Shown here: positions 63,507-64,000 of the stretch, piece by piece
Numbering within the stretch: position 1 is the stretch's first letter
How the letters are laid out: each line of letters opens with the position of its first letter
Assembly (NCBI RefSeq): GCF_009909195.1
Contig: NZ_JAAAMU010000002.1
Span: forward strand, 248,001-312,000
DNA: 64,000 nt
Origin: Paenibacillus sacheonensis
GTDB lineage: Bacteria; Bacillota; Bacilli; Paenibacillales; Paenibacillaceae
Reading direction: 5' to 3'
Notes under the pieces: generated by a model
Database searches by the model: none
What the model was told of the DNA's origin: nothing
The model's input: the letters and a program-made list of their open reading frames with translations, nothing else
Translations under genes and position numbers: made by a program

Positions 63507-63535
63507 TTGACAGGATCTCACTCGTCATGTAATAT
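63507..63535 (+). promoter_or_regulatory. Promoter of the riboswitch transcript
   Basis: TTGACA at 63507-63512, exactly 17 bases, then TAATAT at 63530-63535. Start point about 63542, some 30 bases before the aptamer. Confidence 0.8.
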
Positions 63536-63570
63536 TTCGAGAAGTGAGCATTTGTAGCAGTTCGAATTTC

Positions 63571-63634
63571 ATTCGTATAGCCTCGCAGCAGGGCGGGGGT
63601 TTCTACAGGAAGCCGTAACTTCCTAACTACGAAT
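63571..63634 (+). promoter_or_regulatory. Guanine-type purine riboswitch aptamer
   Basis: Three-way junction matching the purine class. P1 is ATTCGTA (63571-63577) with TACGAAT (63628-63634). P2 pairs CCTCGC with GCGGGG. Junction J2/3 is GTTTCTAC, identical to consensus. P3 is AGGAAG with CTTCCT and loop CCGTAA; GG in L2 can kiss CC in L3. The specificity base before P1 is C (63627), which pairs with guanine or hypoxanthine. J1/2 has G at 63580 where A is usual. Confidence 0.93.
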
Positions 63635-63682
63635 ATGGACGATCCCAGTCGGATTCCATATTTGCGGTTAGGAAGTTTTTTT
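63617..63682 (+). terminator. Riboswitch expression-platform terminator
   Basis: AACTTCCTAAC (63617-63627) pairs perfectly with GTTAGGAAGTT (63667-63677), extended after a 4-base mismatch by AATATGGA/TCCATATT, then seven T. Its 5' strand uses the P3 3' strand, J3/1 and the P1 3' strand, so aptamer and terminator cannot coexist. Confidence 0.92.
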
Positions 63683-63730
63683 GCGTCCGCATGACCGGAC
63701 TGCCAGCTCAAGAGAGGGGTCAATTTATAA

Positions 63731-64000
63731 ATGAAGTATGCAATTGCCGTATTTCTGGGTGCCGTCAGCTACGGCATTTTATCTACGATCGTCGTAAAGG
63801 CATACGGCCAAGGTTATCAATTGGGCGAGGTGGTCGGCTCGCAGCTGTTGGTCGGATTCGCATTGTCCTGGCTGCTGGCCTTATTCACGAAAATGCACTC
63901 GGCGCGCAAGCGGAATGCGGTACCGCATTCCGCCGGCGGCAATTCGGCCGCCGGAGCAACGATGCGGCCCGGATTAACCTGGAAGCAGCGCCTGCTGCTG
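63731..64000 (+). CDS. EamA/DMT transporter, N-terminal part (runs off the window)
   Basis: The first 90 codons of a membrane permease start at ATG 63731 after an AGAGAGGGG tract. Two hydrophobic helices (AIAVFLGAVSYGILSTIVV and VVGSQLLVGFALSWLLALF) precede a charged loop, the DMT arrangement. It lies directly downstream of the guanine-type riboswitch and probably exports or imports a purine-related compound. The rest is outside the window. Confidence 0.8.
   Translation, partial: MKYAIAVFLGAVSYGILSTIVVKAYGQGYQLGEVVGSQLLVGFALSWLLALFTKMHSARKRNAVPHSAGGNSAAGATMRPGLTWKQRLLL

Follow-up and report, generated by a model that had tools for sequence, protein, structure and literature searches.

Guanine-I riboswitches (xpt, purE, pbuG; RF00167) turn their genes OFF as a rule and normally have L2 and L3 loops of 7 nucleotides (nt) joined by two kissing G-C pairs. 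The adenine switch of Bacillus subtilis pbuE, with U74 and a P2-L2 element of nearly fixed length, forms its terminator from J3/1 and the 3' strands of P3 and P1 and follows a kinetic ON logic, with a transporter gene, that of an MFS pump, downstream. In PMC9295807, U22, U51 and C74 are given as the ligand contacts, and the predicted direction is OFF for guanine-I switches and ON for guanine-II switches in Paenibacillus. From xpt and pbuE, chimeras have been engineered in which a guanine-type aptamer drives an ON platform of the strand-invading kind, and they were assayed as C74U with 2-aminopurine: the xpt(C74U) aptamer did not work with the pbuE platform before its L2-L3 contact had been weakened and its P2 tune box, that is, the last base of J1/2 and the two junction-side pairs of P2, had been fully paired (PMC7707468).

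The leader described here lies near the end of the window, the whole 64,000-nt stretch of Paenibacillus sacheonensis DNA that was analyzed. It is probably a C74 purine riboswitch whose 3' half doubles as the 5' arm of a predicted terminator, such that guanine would turn on the gene of a DMT-family transporter, a likely exporter of surplus purine. The following features, all on the forward (+) strand, make up the locus:

63507..63535, +, sigma-70-type promoter, TTGACA-N17-TAATAT (10 of 12 consensus matches)
63571..63634, +, purine riboswitch aptamer, from P1 to P1 (RF00167, 45.6 bits; model R1, 80.2 bits)
63571-63577 / 63628-63634, +, P1 (folding)
63578..63580, +, J1/2, U22-A23-G24; G24 (63580) is the last J1/2 base and a tune-box position
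63581-63586 / 63593-63598, +, P2, with a 6-nt L2 at 63587-63592
63581-63598, +, C25-G45, the ON-linked tune-box pair
63599..63606, +, J2/3, GUUUCUAC, with U51 retained at 63604
63607-63612 / 63619-63624, +, P3, with a 6-nt L3 at 63613-63618
63627, +, C74, the ligand-pairing specificity base, in J3/1 (AAC) (RF00167, folding)
63617..63639, +, predicted terminator 5' arm: end of L3, P3 3' strand, J3/1, P1 3' strand and beyond (folding)
63655..63677, +, predicted terminator 3' arm (folding)
63676..63682, +, U-tract, T7, the first two bases of which pair in the terminator (sequence, folding)
63712..63719, +, likely ribosome-binding site, GAGAGGGG (read from the sequence), not overlapped by the terminator
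63731..64000, +, DMT/EamA transporter gene, truncated where the window ends (324 amino acids in full, L005:3731-4705)

The leader resembles that of pbuE in the origin of its terminator, in the kinetic ON logic and in the transporter gene downstream, but has C74 instead of U74, precedes the gene of a DMT instead of an MFS protein and belongs to a class in which L2 varies from 6 to 30 nt. With guanine-I, it shares C74, U51, U22, J2/3 and the three-way junction; it differs in the predicted direction of control, which is a usual rather than a strictly defining trait of that class, and in having C25-G45 where guanine-I aptamers have U25-A45 or another combination. With guanine-II, the common features are C74 and the predicted ON direction in Paenibacillus; guanine-II switches are distinguished by an insertion in J2/3 and a longer one in J3/1, and are mostly found before phosphoribosyltransferase genes (PMC9295807). 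Assignment to guanine-II or xanthine-II was considered and rejected: J2/3 is standard, U51 is kept and J3/1 has just one extra base.

The RF00167 match spans positions 63553-63649 of the forward strand with 45.6 bits (gathering score 37; E-value 2.1e-4 over the 64-kb window) and is the sole match above a gathering score in the window. This modest score accompanies the short L2 and L3. R1, a covariance model built from 24 DMT-type aptamers, gives 80.2 bits, with the window aptamer itself among the building sequences. The specificity base at 63627, which corresponds to position 74 in the RF00167 match, is C, in agreement with the initial annotation. The leader fold is better than those of 200 of 200 dinucleotide shuffles (z = -4.3). 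In the alignment of the 24 aptamers, 5 of the 7 P1 pairs are invariant and pairs 3 and 5 of P2 show changes on both sides; 96.0% of the cells are paired compared to 92.5% after shuffling, and 24 cells, compared to 10.7, are changed on both sides. The numbers of pairs with both-side changes (4 versus 3.7) and of further pair types (16 versus 15.5) hardly exceed those of the shuffled alignments of the same 24 sequences.

In minimum-energy folding predictions, the terminator consumes P3, J3/1 including C74, and P1, with C63627 paired to G63667, and its 5' strand occupies exactly the segment, 63617-63639, where it had been placed before. During stepwise growth of the transcript, the aptamer is the best fold, or within 0.2 kcal/mol of it, up to position 63660; it is then worse than the invading fold by 1.4 kcal/mol at 63662, 7.1 kcal/mol at 63668 and 17.3 kcal/mol at 63682, all of these energies being RNA-fold predictions that exclude tertiary contacts and ligand. 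Because the invading fold is better by about 17 kcal/mol at the U-tract, the choice between the two folds must be kinetic: the ligand would hold P1 and P3 until the polymerase has passed, as described for pbuE, and binding of guanine (or hypoxanthine) would thus block the terminator and switch the DMT-family gene on. When P1, P2 and P3 are held, the leftover local hairpin (63635-63659) ends 16 nt 5' of the U-tract, which is reached by a weak long-range helix alone (63564-63570/63672-63678, about 2 kcal/mol), so no efficient terminator is expected in the bound state. Constrained folding was also used to look for an OFF design with a hidden antiterminator that would fit better; apart from this weak helix, none was found. 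A simple terminator scan reported none, but its loop limit of 8 does not suit a long imperfect hairpin. Thus, at the level of sequence and predicted folds, the aptamer, the terminator overlap and the mutual exclusion of the two structures are in place, as is their conservation with the DMT gene described below; ON is the predicted direction of control in cells.

The loop-loop contact of this class departs from the guanine-I norm in loop length and retains the G-C pairs. Among 63 distinct P2/P3 sets of the DMT class, L3 is 6 nt long in 54 and 5 nt in 9 (the L3 length counted by the script takes in one paired base), and the two G-C kissing pairs are kept in 60 and 63 sets, respectively. The third kissing pair is A-U in 54 sets, U-A, C-G and U-G in one set each and mismatched in 6. 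The kiss is short, AGG:CCU in most members, and has A.G as its third pair in the window. In the other aptamers of the genus, P2-L2 is 20 or 21 nt long in all 74 counted. A loop-loop contact cut down in this way would suit strand invasion, as would a P2 tune box in which both pairs, C25-G45 and C26-G44, are formed. We infer that the weak kiss eases invasion through P3.

A scan for DMT proteins with one genome per species yielded at least 581 relatives, of which the best 80, with many near-copies (63 distinct P2/P3 sets), were kept. The initial annotation had proposed a search for purine aptamers ahead of other DMT genes and an ON logic of the pbuE kind: the leader, with its predicted ON layout, is present in 79 of these 80 relatives (76 parsed by script; L165, L173 and L167, whose J2/3 is one base shorter, by eye), chiefly in Paenibacillus and Cohnella, L166 being the only one without it. 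The aptamer script gives credit for U22 and for a J2/3 of the usual kind and leaves positions 51 and 74 free; in the 76 parsed relatives, position 74 is always C, and J2/3 reads GUUUCUA (41), GUCUCUA (32) or GUAUCUA (3). C74 is paired with G in the predicted terminator of all 76 relatives and of all 71 distinct segments including the window (the terminator of L099 was refolded owing to an inner T-run; in L162 and L169-L171, a shorter arm starts from G73-C74 and spares P3). In the same 71 segments, position 72 forms A-U (55) or U-A (10) with the opposite terminator arm and is unpaired in 6, and position 73 forms A-U (53), G-C (14) or G-U (3) and is unpaired in one. Since positions 72-73 are unpaired in the aptamer, the fact that they change in concert with the opposite arm speaks for the terminator as such.

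The link between gene and switch is tight within the genus. RF00167 has 94 matches in 22 genomes of the host genus, 93 of them above the cut-off; the DMT ortholog (identity of 64% or more) occurs in 17 of the 22 genomes, and the same 17 hold the DMT-type switch. Seven DMT paralogs (37-51% identity) are found at none of the 94 matches. In the tree of the aptamers, the DMT set forms a single branch with 100/100 support (37 columns). In the order, R1 matches 205 of 246 genomes, other purine aptamers being among the matches, and reaches at least 76 bits in 73 genomes. At scores of at least 78 bits, a DMT gene adjoins the aptamer at all 42 fetched loci, including the window; below 58 bits, it does so at none of the 13 fetched loci. 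One locus in between (L241, 68.5 bits) has a DMT-like protein downstream, as judged by eye. Outside the order, R1 found nothing above 65 bits in the 398 class and 398 phylum genomes drawn, for which stricter filters were used. A clostridial record, Caproiciproducens galactitolivorans (L173), lies outside the order and carries the DMT gene (61% identity) along with the whole switch; this occurrence could result from transfer or from a mixed assembly.

The ligand contacts U22, U51 and C74 are present in the window and in all 76 parsed relatives, as in the guanine-I pocket. Together with the standard J2/3, these unchanged contacts point to guanine or a closely related compound, hypoxanthine for instance, as the predicted ligand. 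The initial annotation had noted the G at the end of J1/2, where A is usual, as potentially shifting ligand choice. The base is indeed there (G24, 63580), but J1/2 is UAA in 11 and UAG in 6 of the 17 DMT orthologs of the genus (71 and 5, respectively, of the 76 relatives); because it varies among orthologs that share the DMT gene and is part of the P2 tune box, G24 is no sign of a new ligand and was rejected as a ligand-changing base. A somewhat unlikely alternative is a C74 ON switch for a guanine derivative (8-oxoguanine, xanthine or a guanine nucleoside) that the DMT protein would export. Variants of the scaffold do read xanthine (in Paenibacillus) and 2'-deoxyguanosine (PMC9295807, PMC9971707), an 8-oxoguanine variant is mentioned in PMC9295807, the DMT class has altered L2 and L3 and a J3/1 longer by one nucleotide, and a toxic derivative would fit an exporter; the contacts listed in PMC9295807 are, however, intact throughout, and the class has neither the U51G of xanthine-II nor the long J3/1 insertion of guanine-II and xanthine-II.

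That the controlled gene encodes an EamA/DMT permease, as originally proposed, is borne out by PF00892 (68.4 bits against a cut-off of 28.2) and by the DMT fold of the structural model, which is of fair quality (pLDDT 67) and is best matched by SLC35B1, the top match, solved with ADP, followed by a triose-phosphate translocator and 5i20. A search by sequence for a solved relative of the protein found none. A DUF1697 gene follows 81 nt after the DMT gene. DMT/EamA proteins of known direction are often exporters, some plant members of the superfamily carry purines, and NCS2 permeases are usually regarded as importers. The predicted ON logic combined with the DMT fold suggests an exporter; ON control does not by itself prove export because C74 ON switches of the genus also precede NCS2 permeases (PF00860). 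These permeases, and the phosphoribosyltransferases that follow guanine-II ON switches (PMC9295807), would fit an aptamer that controls a purine importer or a salvage step instead. Such a role is unlikely for the DMT gene, given the frequent export function of its family and the purine efflux pump controlled by the nearest working model, pbuE (PMC7707468).

Control might also act elsewhere in the leader, either on translation or mainly at the promoter, with the hairpin being a weak attenuator. The promoter match is strong and is retained among the relatives: a promoter with at least 9 of 12 consensus matches lies 5' of the aptamer in 75 of 76, compared to 10 of 76 shuffled sequences. In addition, a palindrome, TGACA-N8-12-TGTCA, lies near the promoter in 15 of 76 relatives and 0 of 76 shuffled sequences, is imperfect in the window (63508-63529) and is possibly a repressor site. 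We nevertheless consider this explanation improbable: the hairpin followed by T7 has the look of a textbook terminator, and some 30 nt separate it from the likely ribosome-binding site downstream, which is not included in the fold. Least probable is an ordinary guanine OFF switch with an incidental terminator overlap, which would agree with the usual OFF direction of guanine-I switches, including four described in C. difficile (PMC11477304), but not with the lack of a local hairpin that reaches the U-tract when P1-P3 are held, the covariation of the terminator arm with junction bases 72-73 or the ON layout of all 17 DMT members of the genus.

Tune boxes were compared among 92 of the 94 genus aptamers; the two left out, h72 and h75, are xanthine-II-like, with U51G, a long J3/1 and a Rieske-like protein behind (by eye). 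An aptamer was called ON if a hairpin including position 74 was followed by a U-tract no more than 60 nt away; without this limit, eight pbuG-type leaders are labeled ON through U-tracts 129-149 nt off, that is, the classifier makes false calls when the U-tract is distant. By this definition, 45 aptamers are ON, namely, 17 with DMT genes, 13 with U74 (before genes of the adenine deaminase and nucleoside hydrolase type), 8 with NCS2 permeases, 5 with an FAD-dependent protein and 2 with a deaminase. The other 47 all have C74 and are mostly located ahead of purine-synthesis and pbuG-type genes. Gene types come from BLAST clusters, with Pfam and NCBIfam applied to one member of each of four groups; h78 (NCS2) and h67 (FAD protein), where the script gave no reading frames, were placed by the likeness of their leaders. 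Because 15 of the 32 C74 ON aptamers precede genes other than DMT, the ON logic is not peculiar to the DMT gene. These leaders share C25-G45 and a terminator over position 74 with the DMT class and differ from it in their genes and in the length of P2-L2, 20 or 21 nt.

Pair 25-45 is C-G in all 45 ON aptamers and in none of the 47 others or, by distinct cores, in 36 of 36 and 0 of 36 (h90 parsed by hand). Both tune-box pairs are standard in 45/45 ON aptamers and also in 23/47 others, so a fully paired box is not in itself a sign of an ON switch. A sharper marker is the identity of the 25-45 pair, C-G, which is shared with three sampled U74 leaders before pbuE-like MFS genes (L306, L310, L317; genes assigned by eye). 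The C-A pair mended in the xpt chimera is presumably 26-44, the neighbor of 25-45. We read C25-G45 as a marker of switch direction; the pattern could also come from shared descent, the cores of the NCS2 ON aptamers having an identity of 0.86 with those of the adenine ON aptamers and of 0.57 with those of the remaining guanine-type aptamers. Across the class, 70 loci were sampled (61 parsed, 9 dropped), and C25-G45 occurs in the three U74 leaders among them, those named above, and in 0 of 58 C74 leaders. Six of these 58 were called ON with a limit of 70 nt (weaker hairpins, of -4.9 to -19.6 kcal/mol), none having C25-G45; we take these calls, which lie ahead of xpt-, guaA-, purE- and NCS2-like genes (by eye), to be false, and if they are true, the C25-G45 rule breaks outside the genus.

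A broader scenario can be put forward tentatively. Paenibacillaceae may possess a natural family of guanine ON switches, with the direction set by C25-G45 and a weak loop contact, that may have arisen by a U74-to-C change on a pbuE-like platform; within it, the DMT branch, with its L2 of free length, would serve a guanine/hypoxanthine exporter that acts as a purine-overflow valve. If the ON reading is true, the DMT leader represents a guanine ON switch that occurs naturally, is conserved widely and has a guanine-I-like pocket, in a class that the cited literature treats as OFF; it would also suggest purine overflow export as the role of a DMT transporter retained in dozens of species of Paenibacillus and Cohnella. 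The comparison further connects the engineering rule that calls for a paired tune box and a weak L2-L3 contact (PMC7707468) with a natural regularity, C25-G45 in the ON aptamers of the genus, and the 25-45 pair may predict the direction of a switch from the aptamer alone. A literature search, which scarcely covered subscription journals, found no paper on the pairing of a guanine or purine riboswitch with an EamA/DMT gene; the one EamA match concerns ykkC subtype 2d RNAs. The DMT leaders may already have been noticed by groups cataloging guanine riboswitches.

Several other purine aptamers were encountered in the course of the analysis. The same genome contains a U74 adenine-type ON switch (G000:C12:400193-400292, L006) before an adenine deaminase gene (TIGR01178, 659.6 bits), and its P2 is closely similar to the P2 of C74 ON aptamers that precede NCS2 genes. 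C74 aptamers before a conserved FAD-dependent protein (L076, L236-L240, L242-L244, L247, L249, L252; PF21688 above the cut-off for L076, the rest by eye) mostly have an ON-type terminator and extend to other families of Bacilli. Three more (L080, L073, L245) are located ahead of an amidohydrolase, which, for L080, the one scored, matches the NCBIfam model of 5'-deoxyadenosine deaminase (723 bits against a cut-off of 522); this set may overlap with the 8-oxoguanine riboswitch class. At L233, L235 and L248, divergent pairs of C74 aptamers lie between an NCS2-like permease and either genes of the xanthine dehydrogenase type (2Fe-2S; Pfam for L235) or XdhC-like genes, as judged by eye. Xanthine-II-like aptamers with U51G, a long J3/1 and a Rieske-like gene behind (by eye) occur at L040 and L043. 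Finally, the C74 aptamer at about base 1501 of L074 precedes a lipoprotein-like relative of nucleosidases/phosphorylases (by eye), which is unusual for an aptamer of the guanine type.
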